NCBI RefSeq assembly: GCF_017357405.1 | Contig: NZ_CP071598.1 | Coordinates: 682,001 to 746,000 of the forward strand | Reading direction: 5' to 3' | Length of the DNA: 64,000 nt | Origin: Halomontanus rarus | GTDB taxonomy: Archaea; Halobacteriota; Halobacteria; Halobacteriales; Natrialbaceae | Shown: one piece after another, positions 1,857-50,406 of the stretch | How the letters are laid out: each line of letters begins with the position of its first letter | Numbering within the stretch: position 1 is the first letter of the stretch | Program-made: the position numbers and the translations under genes | Notes under the pieces: generated by a model | Database searches by the model: none | The model's input: the letters and a program-made list of their open reading frames with translations, nothing else | Told to the model about the DNA's origin: nothing

Positions 1857-2075
1857 ATGCAAAGTGTCGCGATACCCAGAGGCGTCGAACTGGATGACCT
1901 GCCAGGGATATTCTGGCTGTTCATACTCGGCGTCGCAATACTCCTGTTCGGGTTCGCACTCGAGTGGATGGGATACGCGGTCGAGGCTGGCATCGCGGGT
2001 GCGCTCTCGTTATTTTTCCTCGGAGTCACTGTCCTCGGACAGCTATTAATCTGGGGGCTCGGAAAACTGGACTAA
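1857..2075 (+). CDS. Small two-helix membrane protein, unknown
   Basis: A 72-residue protein starting MQSVAIPRGVEL, with two hydrophobic segments (about residues 17-37 and 44-68). I chose the ATG at 1857 rather than an upstream in-frame start because a TATA-like AAGTATATAG lies about 25-30 bases before it, as in leaderless haloarchaeal transcripts, and because the upstream residues lack protein-like character. No family is recognised. It is followed by the decayed amidohydrolase remnant. Confidence 0.6.
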   Translation: MQSVAIPRGVELDDLPGIFWLFILGVAILLFGFALEWMGYAVEAGIAGALSLFFLGVTVLGQLLIWGLGKLD

Positions 2076-2089
2076 ATATCGAATCCGGT

Positions 2090-2421
2090 CGGACGCGAGA
2101 AGTAACGGAGCGAAAAGGTGTTGTTAGGCACAGCAAACGTTCCCCGAAGCGTTTCGATCGCGATTCCAACCGAGAGCGCGTTCGTGTCGTCGACGCCAAC
2201 GGTTCCGTCGGCCACTGGCCGTACCGAGAACTCGACGCCTCCGTCGAAACACTACTCGGTCACGTAGACGCCGCGGACGTCGATCGGGTGTTCGTCTCGT
2301 CGGTAGAGAGTGTCACCCACCGCAATCGTCAGGCTGTAAACTGCCGTCTCACAGCCACAGTCGATGGCTAGAGTACCGTCTCGCCCCATTCACTGCACTC
2401 AACCCGACGAACTCGGCCTGA
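2090..2421 (+). pseudogene. Decayed fragment of the tandem amidohydrolase, second-domain region
   Basis: The frame through 2147-2371 reads RFDRDSNRERVRVVDANGSV, then GHWPYREL...VDRVFVSSVES. This matches the domain junction of the intact amidohydrolases (there: SPREETIVDANAFVGNWPYR...KALVSSLD). After a stop at 2369-2371 the match continues in another frame from about 2367 with EYRLAPFTALNPT, equivalent to EDRLIPFATIDPT in the intact copies. Frameshift, internal stop and missing ends show a dead copy of roughly 110 codons. It extends the family to four copies in the window. Boundaries are approximate. Confidence 0.82.
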
Positions 2422-5256: not shown

Positions 5257-6153
5257 TCAGTGATTCCGCCCGTACGCGTCGGTAAACGTCGCGCCGTCGG
5301 CGTGATACGCGTCGAGTTCGGTCCGGTCGCGCGTGATCGTTCGATCAGCATCTAACGCCGCGTGGGCTGCGAGGAGGAGACCGGCACCGTCGAGGAGTCG
5401 CCGTCGATCGGTCGAGCCGCGCCGGACGGCCCGAACGAACGACTCCATGTACGAACGATACATTTGCTCCCGATCGCCGTCGTCACCTCCGACGAGCGCG
5501 AGGTCCGTGGTATCACCCACGCCCAGAAAGGCGAATCCGCCGCCCTCGTACGGCGGAACTCCGTCGAATCGAACGGTCGCGTACGTTTCGTTTTCGAAGA
5601 CCACGTCGACCGCCGTCCCCGGATCGTCCGCCGGTGTCACCGACCGCCAGTCGGCATCGGCGAAGTGGCGGGCGCTATGGACCACGTGTGCGCCGTAGTA
5701 GAACGGATCGTTGTAGCCGACGCAGTACAGCACGCGACCGCCGCCCGACGCGGGAAAGTCCGCGAGCGCCGGATGAAACGGAATCGACGAGCCGCCGAGC
5801 AGCGGCGTGGTACCGGCCGCATCCGCGATCGCCTCGAGGTCCGCGAGTCGACCTGCGATCGGCTTGTCGACGAACGTCGGAACGTCGGCGTCGAGAAACG
5901 TCGACGCGAGTCGTGCGTGGGTATCCCAGTTCACGGTTAGGATCATCGCGGCGTCCACGAGCGATACCATCTCTTCGGGTTCCTCGCACAGGGTCGCATC
6001 GTGCGTTTCACAGAACTCTCGTACGTACGACCGGTCCCGTACGTCACCGGAATCCCAGACGGCGCTGATGGTGGCGTGGTCGACGTCGTCGAGACTGCGT
6101 GCGAACGATTCGGGATGACTGGTGTCCAACCCGACGATTCCAATATCGATCAT
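5257..6153 (-). CDS. Gfo/Idh/MocA-family NAD(P)-dependent oxidoreductase
   Basis: A 298-residue protein starting MIDIGIVGLDTSHPESF, a Rossmann-fold N-terminus. Later come the family's lysine-proline motif (TFVDKPIAGRLADLE) and a C-terminal alpha/beta domain with YCVGYNDPFYYGAHVV. The family oxidises or reduces sugars, inositols and related polyols. It is divergent from the amidohydrolase at 6302. Its closest relative in the window is at 46005, also beside a tandem amidohydrolase, so the two gene pairs look like copies of one module. Substrate unknown. Confidence 0.85.
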   Translation of the reverse strand: MIDIGIVGLDTSHPESFARSLDDVDHATISAVWDSGDVRDRSYVREFCETHDATLCEEPEEMVSLVDAAMILTVNWDTHARLASTFLDADVPTFVDKPIAGRLADLEAIADAAGTTPLLGGSSIPFHPALADFPASGGGRVLYCVGYNDPFYYGAHVVHSARHFADADWRSVTPADDPGTAVDVVFENETYATVRFDGVPPYEGGGFAFLGVGDTTDLALVGGDDGDREQMYRSYMESFVRAVRRGSTDRRRLLDGAGLLLAAHAALDADRTITRDRTELDAYHADGATFTDAYGRNH

Positions 6154-6268
6154 CCTTCGTCGAGGGAAGTCACCAGTGCGTAAAAGTCGTTCCGGTCGTC
6201 GAACCGTCGGTACTGGTCGAACGAAGCGGTGATTTCCCCTCGCCCTTTGCATCCGGGCAGCGGGAGTA

Positions 6269-6301: not shown

Positions 6302-7987
6302 GTGATAGACTGTCACCAGCACATTAGAGCCGAGGATCTTTCGACGGCGGCGAAGCGACAGGAGTACGCCGACTGGACCCGGCGGGAGATGGAGCGCGTC
6401 GGCATCGAACGCTTCGCCCTGATGCCGTATCCGGGAGACGACCTCGAGGAGACCGTCGAACAAAACGAGCGCACGACGAGGCTCCTCGAAGAGCACCCCG
6501 ACCTCGGCTACGCCTGGGTATACATCGATCCGGAGTGGGGTGAAGGCGCCGTCGAGGAGTTCCGTCGCGCGGTCGAAGCGGACGGCTTCGTCGGGTTCAA
6601 GCACCACTCCAACCGATTCCATCACCCGCTCTCGGACCCGGTAGTCGACCCGTTGCTCGAGGCGGCCGACGAGATGGACGTGCCGGTCATCTCCCACGTC
6701 ACCCAGCGGACTCGCGAGCACCGGGAGGAGATCGCACCCTACGAAACCCAGACCGAACACGTCCGCGAGGTGGCCGACCGCTACCCCGATCTGGACCTCA
6801 TTTCCGGGCACATCGGCGCCGGCGGCGACTGGGAGCGTCGGGTGCGTAACCTGACCGATCTCGAGAACGTCTACCTCGACATCTCGGGGTCGGACTGTGA
6901 ACAGGGGCAGGTGGAGACGGCCGCCGAGTCCCTCGGCGTCGACCGACTCGTGTTCGGCACCGACGGGTGGCTCTTCCCGGACACCGGGAAGCTCATGGGG
7001 TGCGACCTGACCCCCGAGGAGAAGGCGGAGATTGCCTACAACTTCGAATCGCTCGTTCCCGAATCGACTCCGAACAAGCTCGAGACCAACGACCTCGAAG
7101 AGCGAAAGGTCGCCGCGATCGAGCGCTTCGAACGGTTCGAATCGCCCCGCGAGGAGACCATCGTCGACGCCAACGCCTTCGTCGGTAACTGGCCGTATCG
7201 CGACGTCGAGGGCAGTCCCGAGGAGTTGCTCGCACGAATGGACGCGGAGGGGATCGACAAGGCGCTGGTTTCTTCGCTCGACGCCGCCCACATGCGCAAC
7301 GTACCGAAGGCGAACCTGCAGCTCTTCGACCGTATCGACGGTCACGAGGACCGCCTCATCCCGGTCGCTACCGTCGACCCGACCTACAGCAAGTGGCGAG
7401 AGAACGTAGACGAGTGTATCGACCGGGGTGCGAAAGCCGTCAAGATGCTTCCGCTGTACCACGGGTACGCGCTCGACGAGGACCCGGCGCGGGAACTCGT
7501 GACCGCCGCCGGCGAGCGCGACCTCCCCGTCGTCGTCTGCTCGGTCCTCGAGGACCTCCGGAAGCAGCACCCGACGCACAAACCCGTCGGCTCCGAGGAG
7601 ATGTTCCGAGACCGGTGGAACGACGACCAGATCGACGCGCTCATCGACCTGCTCACGGAGTGTCCGGAGACCGACGTGATCCTCGACAACTGCTGGGCGA
7701 GCGCTCCCCGAATCCTCGAGGAGACCCGAAGCCGAATAGACCACCACTGGCTCCGCAACGAGAGTCACGACGCCGAGATACTCTTCAACATCGACGGGCT
7801 CTTCATCTACTACGATGTCCAGGCCGAAGCCGTCGCCAGGGACGTCGGCGCCGACCACCTCGCGTTCAGCGCACAACTCCCGTTCTCCGTCGTCCAGTCG
7901 TACTACAACTACGTCGAGTACCTGCCCGTCGACGAGGAAGCGAAGGATCGCGTTCGCGCCGGTAACGTACTCGATCTGCTCGGCTAG
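6302..7987 (+). CDS. Tandem-domain amidohydrolase (Amidohydro_2 type), copy 1
   Basis: A 561-residue protein with a GTG start. The N-terminal TIM-barrel domain (about 1-270) has the metal motif His5-x-His7 (MIDCHQHIRAED), further histidines (VISHVTQ, LISGHIGAGG) and the aspartate in LVFGTDGW. From about residue 285 a second barrel-like domain begins with VDANAFVGNWPYR. There HxH is replaced by Asn/Phe and the final aspartate site reads AFSAQLPF, so it probably does not bind metal. Members of the superfamily hydrolyse or decarboxylate small cyclic or amide substrates. Two full paralogues (8148, 44124) and one remnant (2090) share this layout. The reaction is unknown. Confidence 0.85.
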   Translation: MIDCHQHIRAEDLSTAAKRQEYADWTRREMERVGIERFALMPYPGDDLEETVEQNERTTRLLEEHPDLGYAWVYIDPEWGEGAVEEFRRAVEADGFVGFKHHSNRFHHPLSDPVVDPLLEAADEMDVPVISHVTQRTREHREEIAPYETQTEHVREVADRYPDLDLISGHIGAGGDWERRVRNLTDLENVYLDISGSDCEQGQVETAAESLGVDRLVFGTDGWLFPDTGKLMGCDLTPEEKAEIAYNFESLVPESTPNKLETNDLEERKVAAIERFERFESPREETIVDANAFVGNWPYRDVEGSPEELLARMDAEGIDKALVSSLDAAHMRNVPKANLQLFDRIDGHEDRLIPVATVDPTYSKWRENVDECIDRGAKAVKMLPLYHGYALDEDPARELVTAAGERDLPVVVCSVLEDLRKQHPTHKPVGSEEMFRDRWNDDQIDALIDLLTECPETDVILDNCWASAPRILEETRSRIDHHWLRNESHDAEILFNIDGLFIYYDVQAEAVARDVGADHLAFSAQLPFSVVQSYYNYVEYLPVDEEAKDRVRAGNVLDLLG

Positions 7988-8147
7988 TCGATCGTCGACG
8001 GGAATCGTTCCCGCGCCCGTTCGATTCGTCGACTCGTCCGCTCCGGAGAGAGTCTCGGTCGCGTCGTCGCTCGATCGCGCCCCGCTGTACAGACCCCTTC
8101 CACAGGAAGACTTTTGACCGTACTCTATCCTTACTACGCTAGGTCGA

Positions 8148-9833
8148 ATGATAGACTGTCACTTGCACGTGTGGACGGAAGACGAATCGACGCCCGAGAA
8201 ACGCGCAGAGCGTGCCGAACAGCTCCGCGGCGAGATGGATCGGCAGGGTGTCGACAGGATCGCCCTCATCGGCGAAGTCGGAAATACGATCGAGGAGTGT
8301 CGCCGCTACAACGAGATCGTCGCGAAGTACGTCGAAGAGTACCCCGACCTGTTCTACGGGTGGGCGCGCGTCGATCCTCGACTGGGCGACGCAGCCGTCG
8401 AAGAGTTCCGCCGTGCCGTCGAGGAGGACGGGCTCGTCGGCCTCAAACACCACTTCCACGGGACACCGGTGAACATCTCCGACGAGGAGTTCTTTCCGCT
8501 GGCCGAGGCGGCCGTCGATATGGACGTGCCGATCATCTCCCACGTCATGCAGCGGCTCCCGGCCGACTACCGCGACCCCAGCGAGGCGTTCACCGAGGAC
8601 GTCGTCGAACTGGCCGAACGGTACCCCGACCTGAAGCTCATCTCCGCGCACATCGTCGCGGGCGGCGACCCCGAGTACCGTATCAAGAACGTCGAGGACG
8701 TCGACAACGTCATTCTGGACATCAGCGGGAGCAACTGCGAGACGGGCAACGTCGAGATGGCCGCCGAGCGGCTGGGTACCGACCGCCTCGTGTTCGGCAC
8801 CGACACCTGGTTCCAACCCGGCGTCGGCAAGCTCGAGGGACTCGATCTCTCGCCGGCGGAGAAAACCGACATCGCCTACAACTTCGAGAATCTGCTCTCG
8901 GACGACGTGCCGAACCGGTACTCGGCCGACGAACTCGCGGAGCGGAAGGCAGAAACGAGGGCGCGCTTCGAGGCGCTCGAGCGACCGCGCGAGGAGACGA
9001 TCGTCGACGCGAACGCCTACGTCGGCAACTGGCCCTTCCGGAGCCTGGACGCCTCGCCGGAAGCGCTCGTCGATCGGATGGACGAGAAGGGCGTCGACGA
9101 GGCGATCGTCTCGGCTATCGACGCGCTGTTCTACCGGAACTGCCACCGGGCCAACCGAGAGCTCGTGGCGGACCTCGAAGGATACGAGGACCGGCTGATC
9201 CCCTTCGCCACGATCGACCCGACGTACGCGGCGTGGCGCAAGGACCTTCACGAGGCCGTCGAGGAGTTGGGAATGCGAGGCGTTCGGCTGTTTCCTTGCT
9301 ACCACGATTACGATCTCGACCAGTCGGCCGTCGCGGAGCTGCTACGCGAGTGCGCCGACCTCGACGTGCCGGTCATGATCGTCGCCGTCCTCCAGGACCA
9401 GCGCCAGCGCCATCCGCGAATGCAACTCCGCGGATTCGAGGACGGCGGGACGCGGAGCTTCACCGAAGAACACGTCGACCAGCTCGTCGAACTGCTCGAG
9501 GAGTGTCCGGACACCGACGTGATCGTCGGAAACCTCTGGAACAACGCCGAACGCGTCTACGAGGAGACCTGCGTCTCGAAGCCCTCCGGGGTCCGACTCG
9601 ACAACCAGGTGCGGTCGGGACGAACCCTGTTCGTCCTCGACGACCTGTTCTACTACTTCGGCTACCAGGGCGAGGAGCTGGTCGAAACCATCGGCACCGA
9701 ACACCTCGTCACCGGTCCGCGGCTTCCGTTTCACATCTTCGAGGCCTACTACAACTACACCGACAACCTCCCCGTCGACGAGGCCGAGAAGGACCGCGTT
9801 CGAAGCGAGAACGTCCTGTCACTGCTCGAGTGA
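8148..9833 (+). CDS. Tandem-domain amidohydrolase (Amidohydro_2 type), copy 2
   Basis: A 561-residue protein starting MIDCHLHVWTEDESTPEK. Domain 1 keeps His5-x-His7, PIISHVMQR, LISAHIVAGG and LVFGTDTW. Domain 2 begins with VDANAYVGNWPFR and ends TGPRLPFHIF in place of the usual GTD, again without a full metal site. It follows copy 1 on the same strand after a 160-base gap, so both may come from one tandem duplication. The region DIAYNFENLL near the domain junction is shared with the other copies. Same uncertain reaction as copy 1. Confidence 0.85.
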   Translation: MIDCHLHVWTEDESTPEKRAERAEQLRGEMDRQGVDRIALIGEVGNTIEECRRYNEIVAKYVEEYPDLFYGWARVDPRLGDAAVEEFRRAVEEDGLVGLKHHFHGTPVNISDEEFFPLAEAAVDMDVPIISHVMQRLPADYRDPSEAFTEDVVELAERYPDLKLISAHIVAGGDPEYRIKNVEDVDNVILDISGSNCETGNVEMAAERLGTDRLVFGTDTWFQPGVGKLEGLDLSPAEKTDIAYNFENLLSDDVPNRYSADELAERKAETRARFEALERPREETIVDANAYVGNWPFRSLDASPEALVDRMDEKGVDEAIVSAIDALFYRNCHRANRELVADLEGYEDRLIPFATIDPTYAAWRKDLHEAVEELGMRGVRLFPCYHDYDLDQSAVAELLRECADLDVPVMIVAVLQDQRQRHPRMQLRGFEDGGTRSFTEEHVDQLVELLEECPDTDVIVGNLWNNAERVYEETCVSKPSGVRLDNQVRSGRTLFVLDDLFYYFGYQGEELVETIGTEHLVTGPRLPFHIFEAYYNYTDNLPVDEAEKDRVRSENVLSLLE

Positions 9834-14713: not shown

Positions 14714-16084
14714 CTACGCGTCTTCGAGTCGCACTTTTTCGGCGGTAACGTCGGAGGGCGTCACCGTCGAATCGGACGCATCGAGGAGGTCGCGAATCGC
14801 GTTCGTGAGCGGCGCCTCGGCGTCGGACGCGACGAGCGAGCCGGTGTCGACCTCGTAACCGCCCATCGGATACGCGTCCTCGGTACCGATGTACATCGGA
14901 CCGAGGTCGCCGTAGGCCGCCATCGCGACGGTCAGATCCGGGCGCATCCGCTTGGCCGCAATCTGATATTCGACGAAGAGTTCTCCGGGCGCGTGCACGA
15001 TGCGAGTGTCGCCGAGGCCGAGGCAGGTAACCGGAATTTCGTGCCCGCGTTCACAGCGGGAGAGCCAGGCCAGTTTTCGAGCCGTTCGATAGTCGGGCTC
15101 CTCCGCGAGGTCGGAAGCCAGTTCGTCCGCGACGAGCTTCGCGGCCGGCGGCAATCCGACTCGTTCGACTCCCCACGAGACGTCGGCGACGGTGACCGGT
15201 ACCGGCGTCACGTCGTTCCAGGCTCGAACGAGTCCGTCCGCGAGTCGTCGAGCTAGAACCGGCCGGTTCTCCGGCGAGCCGTCGTTGTACTTCCCGGCGG
15301 TGACGTTGCCGGCGGCCCCGCAGAAGTGCACCAGCGGAACGCCGATTTCGTCCGAAACCGTTCCGCGGGCGATGCCCGGAAAGTCGCAGGTCACCCGCTC
15401 GTCGCGGTAGTAACTCTGCGGATGACAGGCGTAGTAACTCAACGCCGCGACCGGCGTGTCCTCCCTCCAGAAACTCACCAAGGAGACGGTCGGATCGATC
15501 AGGCCTTCGGGCGCGTCGCGCCACTCGGCTTCCGATTCGGAGCTGAAGCGAACGCGAGCGATTCGGTCGTCGCCGTCGATCAACTGACGGTTCGATGCGA
15601 CGTTCTCCACTGCCGCGGTGCCGACGCCGACGTGCGTGACGGGTTCGGCTTTCGTCACCGCAGTCTCGACGGCGGCGGCCACCCGTTCGACGGTCTCTCG
15701 AGCGTAGGACGGATCGATGCGGTACACCCGGGCGCCGTGGGCGAGCACCATTCCGATCGCGTCGTAGTCGAACCACGGGGTCTGGTGCTGGTGAACCGTG
15801 TGGACGGCGACTCGTTCGGGCGACGTCCCCGCCGCGTCGGCGAGTCGTTCCCGCCACGCGTCGTAACCGGCGTTGCCGTTGCCGATCCAGTCGACACTCG
15901 CGAGTACGATGGGCGCGTCATGGCCGGTCAGGACGATTCCACGGGCGCGGAGCGGATCGTCGATTCCCGCGGCCTCGCCGTACGCGATCGGATCACCGAT
16001 CTCCGGTGTGACGTCCACGTCGAACCGACCGATTCGAACGTCATCCGCAGATGTGCTCTCTCTCGGTGTGGAAACGTCTTCCAT
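14714..16084 (-). CDS. Neutral/alkaline ceramidase-like hydrolase, copy 1
   Basis: A 456-residue protein. The N-terminal strand RIGRFDVDVTPEIGDPI, the zinc-type histidine cluster VAVHTVHQHQTP, the SYYACHPQSYY segment and FCGAAGNVT are hallmarks of the neutral/alkaline non-lysosomal ceramidase N-terminal domain. The sequence is much shorter than true ceramidases and lacks their C-terminal immunoglobulin-like domain and signal peptide. It is therefore likely a cytoplasmic amide hydrolase on a different substrate. Two relatives, at 18721 and 41676, are more like each other than like this one. Confidence 0.75.
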   Translation of the reverse strand: MEDVSTPRESTSADDVRIGRFDVDVTPEIGDPIAYGEAAGIDDPLRARGIVLTGHDAPIVLASVDWIGNGNAGYDAWRERLADAAGTSPERVAVHTVHQHQTPWFDYDAIGMVLAHGARVYRIDPSYARETVERVAAAVETAVTKAEPVTHVGVGTAAVENVASNRQLIDGDDRIARVRFSSESEAEWRDAPEGLIDPTVSLVSFWREDTPVAALSYYACHPQSYYRDERVTCDFPGIARGTVSDEIGVPLVHFCGAAGNVTAGKYNDGSPENRPVLARRLADGLVRAWNDVTPVPVTVADVSWGVERVGLPPAAKLVADELASDLAEEPDYRTARKLAWLSRCERGHEIPVTCLGLGDTRIVHAPGELFVEYQIAAKRMRPDLTVAMAAYGDLGPMYIGTEDAYPMGGYEVDTGSLVASDAEAPLTNAIRDLLDASDSTVTPSDVTAEKVRLEDA

Positions 16085-18424: not shown

Positions 18425-18720
18425 TGGTCTGAGAGTGTGGTCGAACGATCGTCGGTGTTGTCGCCGTACTACCGATACCTCGGCGGAATCAGCGCGAGCA
18501 GGTAAGTCCTTCGCCTCTACTACTAGCTCGTAACGTAACGATACCGATCGACGAGGTCCGACCGTCCGAATTACAGACGCTCTAACCGTCGAAATCGGTT
18601 CTCTCGAGTGTGATCGACGAAGAGACACGATAGTAACACGCGAACCGACGAGCTCACCGCGTCGAGGGAAGGGAGCACACTTATCGTCACGCTCGAGAGT
18701 AGTCGACACGAACGAGACCG

Positions 18721-20067
18721 ATGACGCCTAACGACGGATCGGACACGGATACCGAGCAGAACCGAACAGAGTGGCGGGTCGGAACGGCGACTCGAGTGAT
18801 CACGCCCGAGCGACTGATACTGCTGTCCGGGTACGGCGATCGGACCGAGCCGTCCACGGGAACGGCGATGGAACTCCACGCGAAGGCCGTCGCCCTCGAG
18901 GACGAGAAGGGGTCGGTCGCCGTCATCGTCGGAGTCGACGTACTCGGCGTGACACGCGACTTGCACGCGGCGGTCGTCCGACGGTGCCGGCAGGAGTACG
19001 GACTCGAGTCGGCCGAGCTACTGGTAAACGCCTCCCACACTCATCACGGGCCGGAATACCGCGTGGACGACAGTCGTCTCTGGGATACCGCGGGCACGAA
19101 CGACCAACGCGCACGGGAGTACCGCGAGCGCCTGGAAGACGAGATCGTCGACGTCGTCGGAGCAGCGCTCGAAGCGCGGTCTGACGCCGATCTTCGGTAC
19201 AGCCACGGACGGTGTGGCTTCGGCATGAATCGGCGTCGTCCCGGACCCGACGGCTTCGATCTGGCGTCGTATCCCGACGGGGTCGTCGACACCGACGTCC
19301 CCGTCCTCGTGGCGACGAGCGACGACACGGTTCGAGCCATCCTGTTCGGATACGCGTGTCACCCGACGTCGCACCCGAAGATGCGGGAGTTCCATCCCGA
19401 CTGGCCCGGCGTGGCGACGGCTGCACTCGAGGAGCGGTTCCCGGACGCGACGGCCGTCTTCCTGCAGGGCTGTGCCGCCGACCAGAACCCGGTTCCGCGG
19501 CGGGAACGAGAGCAGACCGTCCAGCACGGGCAGACGGCCGCCAACGCCGTCGAGGCCGCCATCGGAGCACGGGGGAAGTCCGTCCGTGGTCCCCTACGGA
19601 CCCTGACCGAGGAGACGACCCTCGAGTTCGAGGAGCAGCCGGACCGAGCCGAACTGGAGCGTCGGCTGGCCGACGCCGACGGCGAGGACAGGTACGCCAA
19701 CCGACTCCTCGACGTGCTCGATCGCGATGGGGAGATCCGGACGGAGTTCCCCTACCTCGTACAGGCCATCGGATTCGGATCGGACCTGACGCTCGTGAGC
19801 CTCCCGGGTGAAGTACCCGTGAGATACGCCCACCGGATCACGGACGCGCTCGCGGGAGACACGTGGGTCGCGGCGTACTCGAACCACGGCTACGTCTACG
19901 TGCCGACCGACAGACAACTGTACGAAGGGGGGTACGAGCCGACGTGGGTGTTCATCTACTGGGACTACCCCGCGCCGGTGAAACCGTCCACCGAGGATCG
20001 GATCGCGGAAACCGCGCTCGCCCTCGCTCAGAGAGCGGGAGCGACCCGTCGCGACGAGCGCGAGTAA
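18721..20067 (+). CDS. Neutral/alkaline ceramidase-like hydrolase, copy 2
   Basis: A 448-residue protein. WRVGTATRVITPERLILLSGYG at the N-terminus, NASHTHHGPEYR (histidine cluster), FGYACHPTSHPK, FLQGCAADQNPVPRRE and a C-terminal VAAYSNHGYVYVPTDRQLYEGGYEP follow the neutral ceramidase-like fold in order. The same ordered motifs occur in the copy at 41676. No signal peptide, so cytoplasmic. It is divergent from the isomerase at 17546 and faces the gluconolactonase remnant and creatininase gene. Confidence 0.78.
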   Translation: MTPNDGSDTDTEQNRTEWRVGTATRVITPERLILLSGYGDRTEPSTGTAMELHAKAVALEDEKGSVAVIVGVDVLGVTRDLHAAVVRRCRQEYGLESAELLVNASHTHHGPEYRVDDSRLWDTAGTNDQRAREYRERLEDEIVDVVGAALEARSDADLRYSHGRCGFGMNRRRPGPDGFDLASYPDGVVDTDVPVLVATSDDTVRAILFGYACHPTSHPKMREFHPDWPGVATAALEERFPDATAVFLQGCAADQNPVPRREREQTVQHGQTAANAVEAAIGARGKSVRGPLRTLTEETTLEFEEQPDRAELERRLADADGEDRYANRLLDVLDRDGEIRTEFPYLVQAIGFGSDLTLVSLPGEVPVRYAHRITDALAGDTWVAAYSNHGYVYVPTDRQLYEGGYEPTWVFIYWDYPAPVKPSTEDRIAETALALAQRAGATRRDERE

Positions 20068-41454: not shown

Positions 41455-41649
41455 GACGGTACGGTCTCTCTCGGGGAGTTCCCGGAGAGGATCTCCCGGT
41501 CCCGGGTCGGCGCTACGGCACTCGAGGCGGCGAATCTCGAGGCGGTCGGCGCACACGTCTCACTCGAACACCTCGGAAACGAATGGACATCGGGACCCAC
41601 AGACCCACGGTACCGGGCGCGCGCCAGAGATCCACAAACGCACATTTAA
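41455..41649 (+). pseudogene. Decayed isomerase/epimerase fragment
   Basis: The frame reads SRSRVGATALEAANLEAVGA then HVSLEHLGNEW, matching the isomerase at 35181 (TALEDADLEVAGAHVSIDRLES). A nearby AMQLQT in another frame recalls its TAIQLFT start. The match ends after about 30 codons and the frame stops at 41647-41649. No intact metal-site strands remain. It sits just upstream of the ceramidase-like gene's promoter. Confidence 0.62.
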
Positions 41650-41675
41650 TAGTCGGGCGGAACACGGTGATATCC

Positions 41676-42959
41676 ATGGCGACGGACCGAGAGAGCGACG
41701 ACGGGACCGCCCCCGAGTGGGCGGTCGGCACAGCGACGGCTGACATCACCCCCGATCCGGAGGACCCCCACCACCTCATCGGCTTCAGCGCCCGCGAGGG
41801 GGCGATGGACGGCGTCGAATCGACCATCCACGCGAGGGCGATCGCCCTCGAGGACCGGACGGGACGGCGACTCGTCGTCCTCTCGTTCGAACTGCTGTTC
41901 CTCTTCGAGACCCAGCGCGAGTTCCTCGAGCGCGAGTGCGCCGAGCGATGGGACCTCGAGCCCGAATCGCTGTTCGTCGTGCCGAGTCACACCCACTACG
42001 GCCCGGACTACGACGTCCATCGCGAGGGCCTGCAAGAGGAATACGGCCGCGACGAGGAACTCGTCGCCGACTACCGCGAGTCGGTCGACCGAGCGTTACT
42101 CGAGGTGATCGGCGGAGCACTCGAGGACCTCGAGCCCGCCTCGCTGTCGTACAACTACGCCCAGTGTGCGATCGCGCTGAGCCGCCGTCGCCCCCGGGAG
42201 GACGGGATCAGTTTCGATCCGCGACCGGACGGCCCCGTCGACCACGACCTGCCCGTGCTCACCGCCGAGGCCGAGGACGGGACGACGAAGGCGATCCTCT
42301 TCGGCTACGCCTGCCACCCGACCGCCGGGATGGCCCACAACGAGGTCAGCGGCGACTGGCCGGGGTACGCGATGGACCTCCTCGAGGAGTCGTACCCGGA
42401 GGCGACGGCCGTCTTCGTCATCGGCTGTGCGGGCGACCAGAAGGCCTACCCGCAGGGGACGCGCGACCTCGTGAAAGGGCACGCGCGGACGGTGGCGACC
42501 GCGGTCGAACGCGCGCTGGTCACCGAATCCCGGCCGGTTCGCGGGCCGCTGAAGCTCGCAGCGGGGGAGACCGCGCTCGAGATCGAGAGTCCGATCGACG
42601 GCGACGAGCGTGAAAATAGGGACGTACCCGACGGCGTCGGCAAGACGGTCACCGACCACCGACCGTACCCGATACAGGCCGTCGGGTTCGGGACGGACCT
42701 GACGATCCTGTCGCTGTCGGGCGAGGTCGTCGCCGACTTCGCCGTCCGACTGAAGGAGAGCCTCGCCGCGCCGCTGTGGGTCGCGGCCTACGCGAACAAC
42801 ACCGGCTACCTCCCCACGAAACGGATCCTCGCCGAGGGCGGTTACGAGTCCTGGCAGTCCTTCGAGGACGGGCTCTACGCCCCGACGACCGAGGAGCGAA
42901 TTCTGACGAAAGCCACGGCCCTGGCCGAACGTGTCGGCGCACGACGGAGGGACGCATGA
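41676..42959 (+). CDS. Neutral/alkaline ceramidase-like hydrolase, copy 3
   Basis: A 427-residue protein starting MATDRESDDGTAPEWAVGTA. WAVGTATADITPDPEDPHHL, VVPSHTHYGPDY, FGYACHPTAGMAHNE, FVIGCAGDQKAYPQ and VAAYANNTGYLPTKRILAEG follow the same order as copy 2 at 18721. The ATG at 41676 sits 25-34 bases after the TATA-like ACATTTAATA (41642-41651). Its stop overlaps the next gene's ATG (ATGA), so it forms an operon with the mutarotase-like gene. It is cytoplasmic by lack of signal. Confidence 0.78.
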   Translation: MATDRESDDGTAPEWAVGTATADITPDPEDPHHLIGFSAREGAMDGVESTIHARAIALEDRTGRRLVVLSFELLFLFETQREFLERECAERWDLEPESLFVVPSHTHYGPDYDVHREGLQEEYGRDEELVADYRESVDRALLEVIGGALEDLEPASLSYNYAQCAIALSRRRPREDGISFDPRPDGPVDHDLPVLTAEAEDGTTKAILFGYACHPTAGMAHNEVSGDWPGYAMDLLEESYPEATAVFVIGCAGDQKAYPQGTRDLVKGHARTVATAVERALVTESRPVRGPLKLAAGETALEIESPIDGDERENRDVPDGVGKTVTDHRPYPIQAVGFGTDLTILSLSGEVVADFAVRLKESLAAPLWVAAYANNTGYLPTKRILAEGGYESWQSFEDGLYAPTTEERILTKATALAERVGARRRDA

Positions 42960-44123: not shown

Positions 44124-45827
44124 CTACGACTCGAGCAGTTCTAGCACGTTCTCGCTGCGAACGCGATCTTTCTCCTCCTCGCCGACCGGGAGGTGTTTCG
44201 TGTAGTTGTAGGTGGACTCGAACGTCTTGAACGGCAGTTGCGGACCCATCACGAGGTGATCGACGCCGATCTCGTCGGCGATCTGCCGGCCCTGGGTCTG
44301 GGTCCAGTAACAGAACAGGTCGTCGACGACGAGCAGCGTCTTCCCCGTCCGAACCGTGTTGTTGAGCCAGACGTCCTGTCGGTCGACGGTCGTCGTCTCC
44401 CGGATAATTCGAGCGCCCGAGGACCACGCGCCGGCGACGATCACGTCGGTCTCGGGGACCGCCAGCAGGAGGTCGATCACGTCGTCGATCTTCCCCTCGT
44501 TCTCGCGCCAGTGGTTCGCCTGCCCCATCCCGTCGAAGTGACGGAGGAACACGCGCGGGTGGCGGCCGCGCTGGTCCTCGAGAGCCGGCACGAGCATCGC
44601 CGGGACCTCGAGGTCGGCGCAGGCGCGGAGCAACTCCTTCGCCTCGGGCGCGTCGATCTCGTAGTCGTGGTAGGCGGGTAACAGCCGAACGCCCTGCATG
44701 TCGAGGGTCTCGACGCAGTGGCGGAGGTCGTCCTCCCAGCCGGGAAACGTCGGGTCGATCGTCGCGAACGGGACGAGGCGGTCCTCGTAGCCCGCGATGT
44801 CGTCGAGGAGTTCGCGATTGCCGTGCTGTGGGTTCCGGTAGAAGACCGAGCCGAGCGAGGAGACGATCGCCCGGTCGACGCCCTTGCGATCCATCGTCTC
44901 GATCAACTCCTCGGCGGAGGAGTCGAACGGATAAAACGGCCACTGCCCCACGTAGGCGTTGGCGTCGACGATGTACTCTTCCCGGGGTTCCTCGAGCGAT
45001 TCGAACCGTTTTCGTGCCGCCTCGATTCGGGATTCGCGCTCGTCGGGCTCGAGTCGGTTCTCGACGCCGTCGTGGAGTAGGTGTTCGAAGTTGTACGCGA
45101 TTTTCGCCTTGTCTTCGGCCGGGATATCCGCGCCGTCGAGTTTCCCCGCGCACACCGAGAGCCAGGTGTCGGTCCCGAAGAGGAGGCGGTCGACGCCGAG
45201 GGTTTCGGCGGCGAGTTCGATCTGGCCGACCTCGCAGTTGCTCCCGCTGAGGTCGAGATAGACGTTGTCGTGGTCGGCGATGTTCCTGATGCGGTGCTCC
45301 CAGTTACCGCCGGCGCTGATGTGCGCCGAGATCAGTTTCAGGTCGGGGTACCGGCTCGCGAGTTCGGCGACGTCCTCCGACCGCGCCTCGCTCGGGCGCT
45401 CGGTCGGGTACGGCTCCTCGTTTTGCATCACGTGGGCGATGATCGGGACGTCCATGTCGACGGCCGCCTCGGCGATCGGCGCGAACTCGGGATCGGTGAT
45501 GTTGACCTCGGTCCCGACGAAGTGGTGTTTGAATCCCACGAGCCCGTCCTCCTCGACGGCCCGGCGGAATTCCGCGACGGCGTCGTCTCCCCACTCGGGA
45601 TGGGCGCGCGCCCACCCGTAGAAGAGATCGGGGTGTTCGTCGGTGAACGCGGCGACGTCCTCGTTGTGTTCTCGACACTCCTCGAGGGACTCCCCGAGCT
45701 CTCCGATGAGACACGTTCGGTCGATACCGAGAGCGTCCGCCTCCCGACGGAACTGTTCGGCGCGTTGGGCTCGCCGCTCCGGCGTCGAAACGTCCTGCGT
45801 CCAGACGTGAAAATGGCAATCGATCAT
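44124..45827 (-). CDS. Tandem-domain amidohydrolase, copy 3
   Basis: A 567-residue protein starting MIDCHFHVWTQDVSTPERRA. Domain 1 keeps His-x-His, PIIAHVMQN, LISAHISAGG and LLFGTDTW. Domain 2 starts YIVDANAYVGQWPFYPFD and ends VMGPQLPFKTF in place of GTD, so its metal site is incomplete as in the other copies. It is closest to copy 2 at 8148. A start five codons upstream (45842) is possible, but TATA GCTATAAGT (45856-45864, minus strand) fits 45827. It lies beside the oxidoreductase at 46005 on the same strand. Confidence 0.85.
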   Translation of the reverse strand: MIDCHFHVWTQDVSTPERRAQRAEQFRREADALGIDRTCLIGELGESLEECREHNEDVAAFTDEHPDLFYGWARAHPEWGDDAVAEFRRAVEEDGLVGFKHHFVGTEVNITDPEFAPIAEAAVDMDVPIIAHVMQNEEPYPTERPSEARSEDVAELASRYPDLKLISAHISAGGNWEHRIRNIADHDNVYLDLSGSNCEVGQIELAAETLGVDRLLFGTDTWLSVCAGKLDGADIPAEDKAKIAYNFEHLLHDGVENRLEPDERESRIEAARKRFESLEEPREEYIVDANAYVGQWPFYPFDSSAEELIETMDRKGVDRAIVSSLGSVFYRNPQHGNRELLDDIAGYEDRLVPFATIDPTFPGWEDDLRHCVETLDMQGVRLLPAYHDYEIDAPEAKELLRACADLEVPAMLVPALEDQRGRHPRVFLRHFDGMGQANHWRENEGKIDDVIDLLLAVPETDVIVAGAWSSGARIIRETTTVDRQDVWLNNTVRTGKTLLVVDDLFCYWTQTQGRQIADEIGVDHLVMGPQLPFKTFESTYNYTKHLPVGEEEKDRVRSENVLELLES

Positions 45828-46004
45828 GCGATGAATTGCCAATGATCGACGGCGGACTTATAGCTTGTGCGATGGACGTCCCGAACCGGTACTGCCGGCC
45901 GGCGAGCGCGTGCGACGCGGTCGCTCGAGCGGGGGAGTCGATTCGACAGTCCGGAAATTCCGAAACGGATCCGGCGTCGCGAACGGAACCGAGATCGAAC
46001 CGTA

Positions 46005-46895
46005 TCAGTAGTACGGCCGATACTCTTCGAGGAATGCCGCTCCGTCGACGGCGTACTCGGAGAGGACCCGACACTCCGGAGTGATCGGTCGGTCGTGTTC
46101 GAGGGCCGCGACGACGCCGAGGAGGAGTGCCGCGGCGTCGAACACACGCTCGCTCGGGTCGATCTCCCCGGCGACTACGTCGAGGACGGTTTCGATGTAC
46201 GCCCGGTACATGTCGGTCATGTCGGCCGGCGTGCTGCCGACGTCGACGGCGGTCGTCCGGTTTCCGATGCTGAGAAACGAGAACTGGTTCTCGTCTTCCG
46301 GACTGTCGAGTCGAAGGGTGGCGTACGTACCGTCGGTGAAGACCACGTTGACGGTCTGCCCGGGATCGTCGGCCGGCGAGACGCACGCCCACGGGGAGTC
46401 GACGATGCGACAGACGGTGTCGACGAGGTGGACACCGTAGTAGAACGGATCGTCGTAGCCGACGCAGTACAGCGTCCGGTCGTCGGACTCGAGATCGGCC
46501 GACCGAACCGCGGAGTGGTACGGCACCGCCGACCCGCCGAAAAAGGGCGTCCCGCCCGCGGCCGCCTCGAGTTCGCGAATATCCGCGAGATTCCCCGCGA
46601 TCGGTTTGTCGATCACCGTCGGTACCCCGCGCTCGAGAAACGGAACGGCGAGTTCGCGATGCGTGTCCCAGTCGACGGTGAGAATCATCACGGCGTCGAC
46701 GCGGTCGGCCATCTCGAGCGGTTCGTCGTACCGGTTCGCGCCGTGAGTGTCGCAGTATTCCTCCGTATACGATTCACTTCGAACGGCTCCCCCGTCCCAC
46801 ACCGCAGTGAGACTCGTAGACGGGTGTCCAGCCAGCGTGTCGGCGAACGCCTCGGCGTGACTGGTATCCAACCCAACGATTCCGATATCGACCAT
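46005..46895 (-). CDS. Gfo/Idh/MocA-family oxidoreductase, partner of amidohydrolase copy 3
   Basis: A 296-residue protein starting MVDIGIVGLDTSHAEAFADT. It parallels the protein at 5257 throughout: PTVIDKPIAGNLADI, GGSAVPYHSA, YCVGYDDPFYYGVHLV and VSPADDPGQTVNVVF. AAGTATAAGT (46921-46930, minus strand) is a TATA box 26-35 bases before the ATG. It is 177 bases upstream of amidohydrolase copy 3. This is the last recognisable gene of the catabolic island. Confidence 0.85.
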   Translation of the reverse strand: MVDIGIVGLDTSHAEAFADTLAGHPSTSLTAVWDGGAVRSESYTEEYCDTHGANRYDEPLEMADRVDAVMILTVDWDTHRELAVPFLERGVPTVIDKPIAGNLADIRELEAAAGGTPFFGGSAVPYHSAVRSADLESDDRTLYCVGYDDPFYYGVHLVDTVCRIVDSPWACVSPADDPGQTVNVVFTDGTYATLRLDSPEDENQFSFLSIGNRTTAVDVGSTPADMTDMYRAYIETVLDVVAGEIDPSERVFDAAALLLGVVAALEHDRPITPECRVLSEYAVDGAAFLEEYRPYY

Positions 46896-49134: not shown

Positions 49135-50406
49135 TTACGGCAAATTGTCGAGTCGACTATCCCGAAGGACCGATTTCAACACGATATCCGTATCCTGCAC
49201 GAGTCGATGTTCGAGGTAGCTTCCCTGCCCCCGACCGCCGCCGGTTCGCGTCGACTCGACGACGCCGAGGAAGGCCTGTTCTTTGAGCAACTCGTACACG
49301 CGGTGCTCGCTGAGAACGCTCGCCTCGAGGCGTTCGGTAGTCCGTTTGTATCGCTCGTAAATCCGACTGGTCGAAAACTCGTCTTCGGCGTGTTCCTCGG
49401 TGAGCATCGCCAGCGAGTACAGAATGAACTTGACCTGCGTCGTCGACCCGCGAAGCAGTTCCTCGAACCGGTCGATCTCCGCCCACTCCTGTGCGTCGCG
49501 GACGTGTTTCTCCTGGACTAGGTCGGCGCCCTGGCGTTCGGCGAGCTCGCCGGCGTGACGGAGGATCTCGATGGCTTTCCGCGCGTCACCGTGTTCCTGC
49601 GCCGCGAACGCTGCAGTGAGCGGAATGACGTCCTCGGTGAGTACATCGTCGCGAAACGCGTCACGACGATGGTTCATGATCTCGCGTAGCTGATTTGCGT
49701 CGTAAGGCTGGAAAACGAACTCCTCCTCGCGAAGGCTGCTTTTGACCCGCTCGTTGAGTTCGTCACGATACTCGATCTTGTTACTGATCGCGATAATCCC
49801 GAGGTGACAGTCGGCCTTTCCGGACTCGCGTGCGCGTGAGAGTTGCATGAGAACGTCGTCGTCCTCGAGGCGATCGACTTCGTCGAGGACGATGATGACC
49901 GCGTCGTACACCCCGTCGAGGATCTCCCAGAGGTAATCGTAGTACTCACCGCTACCGATACCGGACCGGGGGATATCGAATCCGGTGTTCGCGCTTTCGT
50001 TGAGCGATCGCGTAATCGACCGTGCGACGCGAGTCTGGGTGTTGTGTTGTGCACAGTCGACGTACACCGTCCCGACGGCGACGCCCTGTGCTTCGGCTGC
50101 TCGACGCGCCCGCTCTGTTACGTGCTGGGCGACGAGAGATTTTCCGGTCCCCGTCTTGCCGTAGATCATCGTATTGTTCGGCGGTTGCTGTTGGACGATC
50201 GGACGAAGCTCCGTCGCTACGGCTTCGATCTCCTCGTCGCGGCCGACGATCCGTGTGCTCTCCGGGACGTGGCCGACCTTCAGCAACTCCTTTCGGGTGA
50301 AAATGTGTCCGTGCGAGGTATCCTCGTCGAAGTTGAACAGCGGATCTTCGGACGGATCCTCGAGTCGTTCGTCGAAGTCGGAGAGCTGAGTCGACTCGTC
50401 GGCCAT
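49135..50406 (-). CDS. orc1: Orc1/Cdc6 replication initiator
   Basis: A 423-residue protein. Walker A is GKTGTGKS (residues 83-90), Walker B VIIVLDEVDRLEDDD, sensor 1 IIAISNKIEYRDELNERVKS, and the arginine-rich sensor 2 region lies near HGDARKAIEILRHAGELAE. The C-terminal winged helix (after about 330) ends GSYLEHRLVQDTDIVLKSVL. It binds origin recognition boxes and opens the origin. It is transcribed away from the box-bearing intergenic region, the usual arrangement. GTACTTATG at about 50432 is a possible TATA box (minus strand CATAAGTAC). Confidence 0.93.
   Translation of the reverse strand: MADESTQLSDFDERLEDPSEDPLFNFDEDTSHGHIFTRKELLKVGHVPESTRIVGRDEEIEAVATELRPIVQQQPPNNTMIYGKTGTGKSLVAQHVTERARRAAEAQGVAVGTVYVDCAQHNTQTRVARSITRSLNESANTGFDIPRSGIGSGEYYDYLWEILDGVYDAVIIVLDEVDRLEDDDVLMQLSRARESGKADCHLGIIAISNKIEYRDELNERVKSSLREEEFVFQPYDANQLREIMNHRRDAFRDDVLTEDVIPLTAAFAAQEHGDARKAIEILRHAGELAERQGADLVQEKHVRDAQEWAEIDRFEELLRGSTTQVKFILYSLAMLTEEHAEDEFSTSRIYERYKRTTERLEASVLSEHRVYELLKEQAFLGVVESTRTGGGRGQGSYLEHRLVQDTDIVLKSVLRDSRLDNLP

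Follow-up and report, generated by a model that had tools for sequence, protein, structure and literature searches.

Haloarchaeal fusions of a metal-site amidohydrolase to a metal-less paralogue suggest an old, overlooked two-part enzyme

Background

Gamma-resorcylate and 5-carboxyvanillate decarboxylases are assemblies of like subunits, and LigI and other members of the amidohydrolase superfamily work metal-independently, LigI while keeping HxH-like residues. ACMSD is likewise a dimer, and Arg239 of the adjacent subunit enters its active site (PMC11650718). In 2-aminoisobutyrate hydroxylase (AibH1H2, PDB 8FUN), a two-chain heteromer, a catalytic subunit is joined by an auxiliary one (PMC12141560; PMC10401708), and the activity of P. 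aeruginosa ATCase depends on an inactive partner chain from the amidohydrolase superfamily (PMC7053772). Here we describe three proteins from a stretch of 64,000 nucleotides (positions 682001-746000 of the 1.14 Mb contig C2 in a two-contig haloarchaeal genome, called the window below), each of which fuses an amidohydrolase domain with a full set of metal ligands (d1) to a related domain that has lost them (d2). On balance, and with some reserve, we favor the reading that each of them is a heteromeric amidohydrolase in fused form, composed of two old paralogues, of which d1 would be the catalytic metal subunit and d2 its obligate partner.

Both d1 and d2 are homologous to gamma-resorcylate decarboxylase, ACMSD, and 5-carboxyvanillate decarboxylase, and d1 keeps the ligand set. 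In its HxH-like residues LigI would contrast with d2, which mostly has Asn and an aromatic residue at the HxH place. Whereas ACMSD is a dimer of like subunits (PMC11650718), one partner here is ligand-less and the genome keeps the two as a fixed pair. As in AibH1H2, a catalytic chain belonging to PF04909 would work with an auxiliary chain. The two systems differ in that AibH1 keeps a metal and AibH2 holds a dinuclear Mn/Fe site with other ligands, including D25 and H27 (PMC12141560); d1 has HxH where AibH2 has D25-x-H27. The d1 profile reaches the 8FU* chains at E ~0.6 only, and neither the forward nor the reverse d2 profile matched an 8FU* chain at E<=1, so membership in the AibH1H2 family was rejected, the profile scores being not significant and the ligand pattern different. 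The likeness to P. aeruginosa ATCase lies in the inactive chain needed by its partner (PMC7053772); the difference is that the active partner there is the ATCase, whereas here it is the metal-bearing paralogue itself. Of the precedents, AibH1H2 and the ATCase complex come closest, and neither is a fit. Searches of open-licence PMC papers for such a pair gave no description of it.

Two amidohydrolase domains in one chain

An initial annotation of the window had proposed that three proteins join an Amidohydro_2 domain carrying HxH...H...H...D to a second, ligand-less domain, and the open reading frames (ORFs), the Pfam matches, and the residues themselves all agree with it. Three intact fused proteins of 561-572 amino acids (aa) are encoded exactly where they had been placed (Table 1), and a Pfam search matched PF04909 (Amidohydro_2) in two stretches of each. 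The best stretches in d1, residues 2-222, 2-225, and 7-226, score above the gathering threshold, and each d2 searched on its own also exceeds the Pfam cutoff of 26.4 bits (53.1, 41.2, and 36.1). As had been proposed, DANA[FY]VG[NQ]WP[FY] at the start of the second domain stands in the HxH place in all three proteins, and SAQ, GPR, or GPQ stands at the GTD place. The d2 of copy 1 carries DANAFVGNWPYR and has FSAQ at the GTD place, and that of copy 2 carries DANAYVGNWPFR and has GPR there. For copy 3, which is 572 aa as listed, an alternative start at M6 (45827) would bring the length in line with the other copies.

A fourth intact copy in the same (forward) order lies 31.8 kb before the window. 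Within one chain, d1 and d2 of the four copies are 23-29% identical, and hhalign assigns their profile similarity a probability of 98.2 to 99.6%; because of this similarity and the conservation across the 113 homologues described below, a chance resemblance is implausible. Between the four copies, d1 is 53-66% and d2 41-56% identical, which marks them as diverged paralogues and not as fresh duplicates. The count of three intact copies and one relic in the window also held, the relic being a d2 piece only; no d1 match was found in its region, 2057..2418. For the three fused proteins, every NCBIfam model stayed below its cutoff (the single match, at E 0.22, is noise), in agreement with the proposal of an uncharacterised class, and the d2, reverse-order, and bacterial members tried retrieved no model at E<=0.01.

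Metal ligands kept in d1 and lost in d2

Conservation was read from 113 full-length fused homologues, out of 119 matches from which four of other lengths and two with reversed domain order were dropped. H5, H132, H168, and D219 of d1 are present in every one of the 113, and H7 in 107, the other 6 having Ala. In the hand-picked set used for the trees below, all 38 metal-type rows carry the full set of HxH, His, His, and Asp. The metal domains of loci L005 and L046 likewise score above the Amidohydro_2 gathering threshold. The d1 profile matches the solved structure 3s4t at E 7e-18. In the favored reading, d1 is of the ACMSD/gamma-resorcylate-decarboxylase type, probably with a mononuclear site. 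K100 of d1 is also invariant across the 113 homologues. The same column holds Lys in 38/38 metal-type rows, and among the 34 metal-less rows it holds Arg in 24 and Lys in 7. This residue could be a substrate Lys or the carboxylated Lys of a binuclear site.

In d2, Asp is found at the column equivalent to D219 in 0/113 fused homologues. Among the 34 metal-less rows of the tree set, His occurs in the H5 column in none, in the H7 column in one, in the H132 column in two, and in the H168 column in none, and no row has Asp in the D219 column. The family relationship is still recognisable: 7/8 metal-less domains tried pass the Amidohydro_2 gathering score, including all three of the window (that of L072 gave no Amidohydro_2 match), the d2 profile matches the solved structure 3nur at E 9e-10, and its homology to the solved 4igm spans profile positions 22-258 of 259.

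The metal-less domain is nearly as conserved as its neighbor, with a mean commonest-residue frequency of 0.63 versus 0.68 for d1 (113 homologues). For its own conserved residues, 163 forward d2 rows were compared (113 haloarchaeal, 39 bacterial, and 11 standalone). D417, R419, and N336 are kept in 163/163. All 11 standalone rows also have H422 (112/113 haloarchaeal, 33/39 bacterial), H386 (111/113 and 33/39), N289 (109/113 and 34/39), and Y388 (113/113 and 30/39). N336 has a counterpart in d1, N55, whereas D417 and R419 have no ligand counterpart there. Because D417, R419, and the others are so well kept, d2 does not look like a decaying domain, and the invariant Asp and Arg make a metal-independent active or binding site possible. 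The initial annotation had called the second domain a regulatory, structural, or substrate-presenting pseudo-enzyme; the loss of metal ligands stands, but the designation is not proven, given that d2 retains this Asp and Arg.

Separate gene pairs in bacteria

A scan with a standalone metal-less protein (source name Armatimonadota) retrieved 8 loci under the titles Candidatus Zipacnadia, Armatimonadetes UBA5352, or candidate division WS1, and in 8/8 a metal-type gene lies directly upstream of the d2 gene. In L042 and L044 the start of the metal gene is cut by the contig end and its type rests on the profile score; elsewhere in the locus counts, metal-type means that HxH was seen. We then drew on 201 genomes of one bacterial phylum, including the Armatimonadetes UBA5352 genome. 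The forward d2 profile finds 46 of the 201 at E<=1e-25, although the weakest matches may be of the reverse type. In 23/23 further loci from 23 genomes among the best-scoring, a metal-type gene stands upstream on the same strand, with an overlap of 1-7 nt in 16, a spacing of +1 to +34 in 5, and +118 and +533 in the last two. Six of the eight loci L064-L071 are paired as well, 5 of them with a 4-nt overlap, and one is cut by a contig end. The forward total is thus 37/39 loci paired with an upstream metal-type gene and 28/39 with an overlap of 1-7 nt; distances use the nearest start codon and may be off by a few codons, those of L043 and L045-L049 being taken from listed ORF ends.

The reverse-order proteins, with the metal-less domain first, form a family of their own, with P0118, P0119, and P0159 as distant members. 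At E<=1e-25, the reverse profile matches 75 of the 201 genomes. Among the best 30 of these 75, read at one locus per genome, 28 have an HxH domain downstream or in the same chain, and 7 are fusions. A pattern search did not find the C-terminal Asp motif in three metal partners, those of L135, L136, and L155 (the last cut by a contig end). The same reverse pair is found as overlapping ORFs in a record named Subdoligranulum (Bacillota).

Some of the forward loci have a further gene: among L064-L071, a single metal-less gene follows two metal-type amidohydrolase genes, most clearly in L067 and L070, where all three genes overlap by 4 nt. No pathway was recognised by eye among the ORFs that flank the L043 and L046-L049 pairs. 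Two plasmid matches were set aside, that of Niallia because the protein carries DAHVH, and that of Klebsiella because it covers the metal half only. On the plasmid of Niallia sp. Man26 (L055, 475-6669), a small metal-type amidohydrolase lies beside DUF6379, a sugar isomerase, and two Gfo/Idh genes, a set which we take to resemble a C-glycoside deglycosidase cluster.

Descent and distribution

A tree was built from 72 domains, comprising 34 hand-picked pairs (from 233 extracted domains) and 4 outgroup rows; a quick tree had 10 outgroup rows. With the ligand columns removed, 34/34 metal-less domains fall on one side of a branch supported at 100/99, and the split is present in 100% of 200 bootstrap trees. 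The quick tree, in which the ligand columns were kept, has the same split with support of 98, so the metal columns alone do not drive the tree. A single early loss of the metal site would be the simplest reading, though not proof, of these trees, whose root was not inferred. In each tree L072, whose order is reversed, groups with forward rows, though on a long branch and weakly supported, and this is only a hint that gene order may have flipped a further time. Distances among d1 and among d2 correlate across the 34 pairs (r 0.88; 0/5000 permutations) and across 13 bacterial pairs (r 0.75; 0/5000 permutations).

A search of 292 Halobacteria genomes at E<=1e-12, by which weaker standalone d2 could be missed, located forward d2 at 14 places, spread over 10 genomes and always fused (14/14, in frames of 564-612 aa). 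Two further matches fall in the 543-aa reverse-order frame. The two-domain profile matched in 170/292 genomes, and most of the partial matches among those listed span only about residues 20-222, the d1 part; amidohydrolases of this fold therefore commonly occur without d2 in Halobacteria.

Forward and reverse-order genes also meet in the genome of the window: 73 bases before the fourth copy lies the gene of a 541-aa protein with the metal-less domain first and the metal domain second, and two such genes are neighbors in Halomontanus rarus too. Much of the first 29 kb of the window aligns at 96-98% identity to the plasmid NZ_CP119797.1 of H. rarus (Natrialbaceae). H. rarus has an extra gene of about 1.9 kb (L050:30565-32475), absent at 18629-18635 of the window, which encodes P0156, a 636-aa reverse-order fused pair with an apparent Tat signal, RRSVLAATGL; such pairs are thus perhaps exported.

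A candidate two-part enzyme and its rivals

Genes that are fused in one group and adjacent in another, here in both orders, are Rosetta-Stone evidence that their products form a complex, and an enrichment for complex subunits is found among gene pairs spaced -8 to +10 nt (PMC10666635). Taken with the precedent of Arg239 in ACMSD, the fusions and short-overlap pairs suggest that d2 may replace the second subunit of the ancestral enzyme and contribute to the d1 site. In this mechanism, d1 and d2 would pack as a pseudo-two-fold dimer, with d2 standing in for the second chain of an ancestral homodimer; residues or a pocket supplied by d2 would then hold the substrate or complete the active site of d1, and thereby support one metal-catalysed reaction. 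What the data suggest is a two-part enzyme, old and so far overlooked, that cannot do without its "dead" half. The sequences themselves show the make-up of the domains, the lost ligands, the pairing, the grouping of metal-less domains on one side of the tree, and the correlated distances; contact between d1 and d2, a composite site, the reaction, and the substrate are inferred. The initial annotation had spoken of a specialised uncharacterised enzyme class; it does appear to be uncharacterised, but it is no oddity of haloarchaea with a spare domain, being instead the fused form of a paired two-protein system that is also found as separate genes and in the reverse order.

Several observations weigh against a heteromer with d2 as helper. 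Within 1.5 kb, the d2 gene of L069 and the reverse metal-less genes of L137 and L138 stand without a partner (the contigs of the latter two hold another amidohydrolase match about 2 kb away), and the larger gaps, 118 nt in L106 and 533 nt in L099, fit it less well. Standalone d2 proteins without readable neighbors exist, for example P0121, P0122, and P0124-P0136. The pairing counts come from best-scoring loci only, namely 23 of the 46 matching genomes plus those from the earlier scan for the forward type and the best 30 of 75 for the reverse type. The correlation of distances is in part shared species descent. By eye, no d2 equivalent of ACMSD Arg239 was recognised. The invariant D417 and R419 are more suggestive of a site belonging to d2 itself than of the interface of a helper. 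In addition, the six reverse-order d2 in the alignment, from which a row with wrong coordinates had been dropped, lack the D417/R419 DxRxxH set, so the forward and reverse families may work differently.

The best-argued rival is a bifunctional enzyme, in which d2 would act metal-independently with its Asp/Arg/His/Tyr/Asn set (as a lactonase, isomerase, or lyase, for example) and d1 and d2 would catalyse successive steps. Its strongest point is the invariance of D417 and R419, shared by N336, in every forward d2 row. In the d1-d2 alignment, D417-H422 follow the H132 place and Y385-Y388 the K100 place, and these stretches would presumably lie on the catalytic side of the barrel. N336, however, is not specific to d2, as it aligns with N55 of d1, and the reverse-order d2 do without the DxRxxH set, yet 28/30 reverse loci are paired. 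We consider a bifunctional enzyme unlikely, though worth keeping in view.

Another rival would have H386, D417, and H422 bind a different metal in d2, whether structural or catalytic, comparable to the Mn that AibH1 keeps (PMC12141560; PMC10401708). This is improbable: the three residues are present in 111, 113, and 112 of the 113 haloarchaeal rows, but H386 and H422 are each found in just 33/39 bacterial d2 rows and the set was not seen in the six reverse-order d2. A purely regulatory or scaffolding d2, binding an effector or holding the oligomer without ever touching the d1 active site, would have a parallel in the inactive dihydroorotase chain needed by P. aeruginosa ATCase (PMC7053772) and would fit short gene overlaps as a means of subunit stoichiometry, but the d2-specific invariant residues sit in two short stretches behind the ligand positions and look site-like in the alignment, and we give it little weight.

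The heteromeric reading can be extended, more tentatively, to an ancient and widespread class of two-subunit enzymes in archaea and bacteria, in which one paralogue would have discarded its metal site early and become the lasting partner of the other, the forward partner would have evolved a metal-free site of its own (DxRxxH with YHxY), the pair would work as a composite or two-step enzyme, and fusion would have occurred at least twice, in opposite orders.

Features and gene neighborhood

Table 1. Features of the window and of the fourth copy (window positions unless marked C2).
Feature	Position	Strand	Remarks
Relic of a further copy	2057..2418	+	d2 piece only, near 2135-2371; in-frame TAG
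Gfo/Idh/MocA oxidoreductase	5257..6252	-	divergent neighbor of copy 1
Fused copy 1, 561 aa	6302..7987	+	d1 metal domain ~6302-7087; d2 metal-less domain ~7148-7984
Fused copy 2, 561 aa	8148..9833	+	d1 ~8148-8933; d2 ~8994-9830
Copy 2, d1 H5 and H7	8160..8168	+	ligands, HxH
Copy 2, d1 K100	8445-8447		
Copy 2, d1 H132	8541..8543	+	ligand
Copy 2, d1 H168	8649..8651	+	taken as place of the ACMSD catalytic His
Copy 2, d1 D219	8802..8804	+	ligand, GTD
Copy 2, d2 N289	9012..9014	+	replaces first His of HxH
Copy 2, d2 residues 385-388	9300..9311	+	YHDY; holds H386, Y388
Copy 2, d2 residues 416-422	9393..9413	+	holds D417, R419, H422
Copy 2, d2 residue 525	9720..9722	+	Arg; place of the metal-binding Asp
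Neutral ceramidase N-terminal domain relative	14714-16084	-	below Pfam cutoff
Neutral ceramidase N-terminal domain relative	18721-20067	+	
Neutral ceramidase N-terminal domain relative	41583-42959	+	
Fused copy 3, 572 aa as listed	44124..45842	-	d1, then d2 (44127-44972); GPQ at GTD place
Gfo/Idh/MocA oxidoreductase	46005..46895	-	near copy 3
Orc1/Cdc6 gene	49135-50406		
Fourth intact forward copy	C2:648530-650215		31.8 kb before the window

Gfo/Idh oxidoreductases, sulfatases, and sugar-isomerase-like or TIM-barrel proteins are encoded within 15-20 kb of a fused gene on 5/5 named haloarchaeal plasmids. Near the fused gene, four of these five plasmids also have aminotransferases, three ceramidase-like proteins, three ABC transporters, and two RidA. 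These neighbors, read with background gene frequencies uncontrolled, point to a haloarchaeal role in the catabolism of sulfated or amino sugars. The type to which the ceramidase relatives of Table 1 belong is also found near fused genes on other haloarchaeal plasmids.

Implications

In the annotations seen, the genes are called "amidohydrolase family protein" or "predicted TIM-barrel fold metal-dependent hydrolase", names under which the metal-less members stay hidden. If those members are indeed obligate partners, assays of the metal protein as a single subunit may fail or mislead, and catabolic genes of haloarchaea and of little-studied bacteria could be reassigned to two-subunit enzymes. 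The separate and fused pairs, in both orders, offer a natural experiment in how a homodimeric enzyme might become an enzyme/pseudo-enzyme pair, and the haloarchaeal fused proteins allow this to be tested within one polypeptide.

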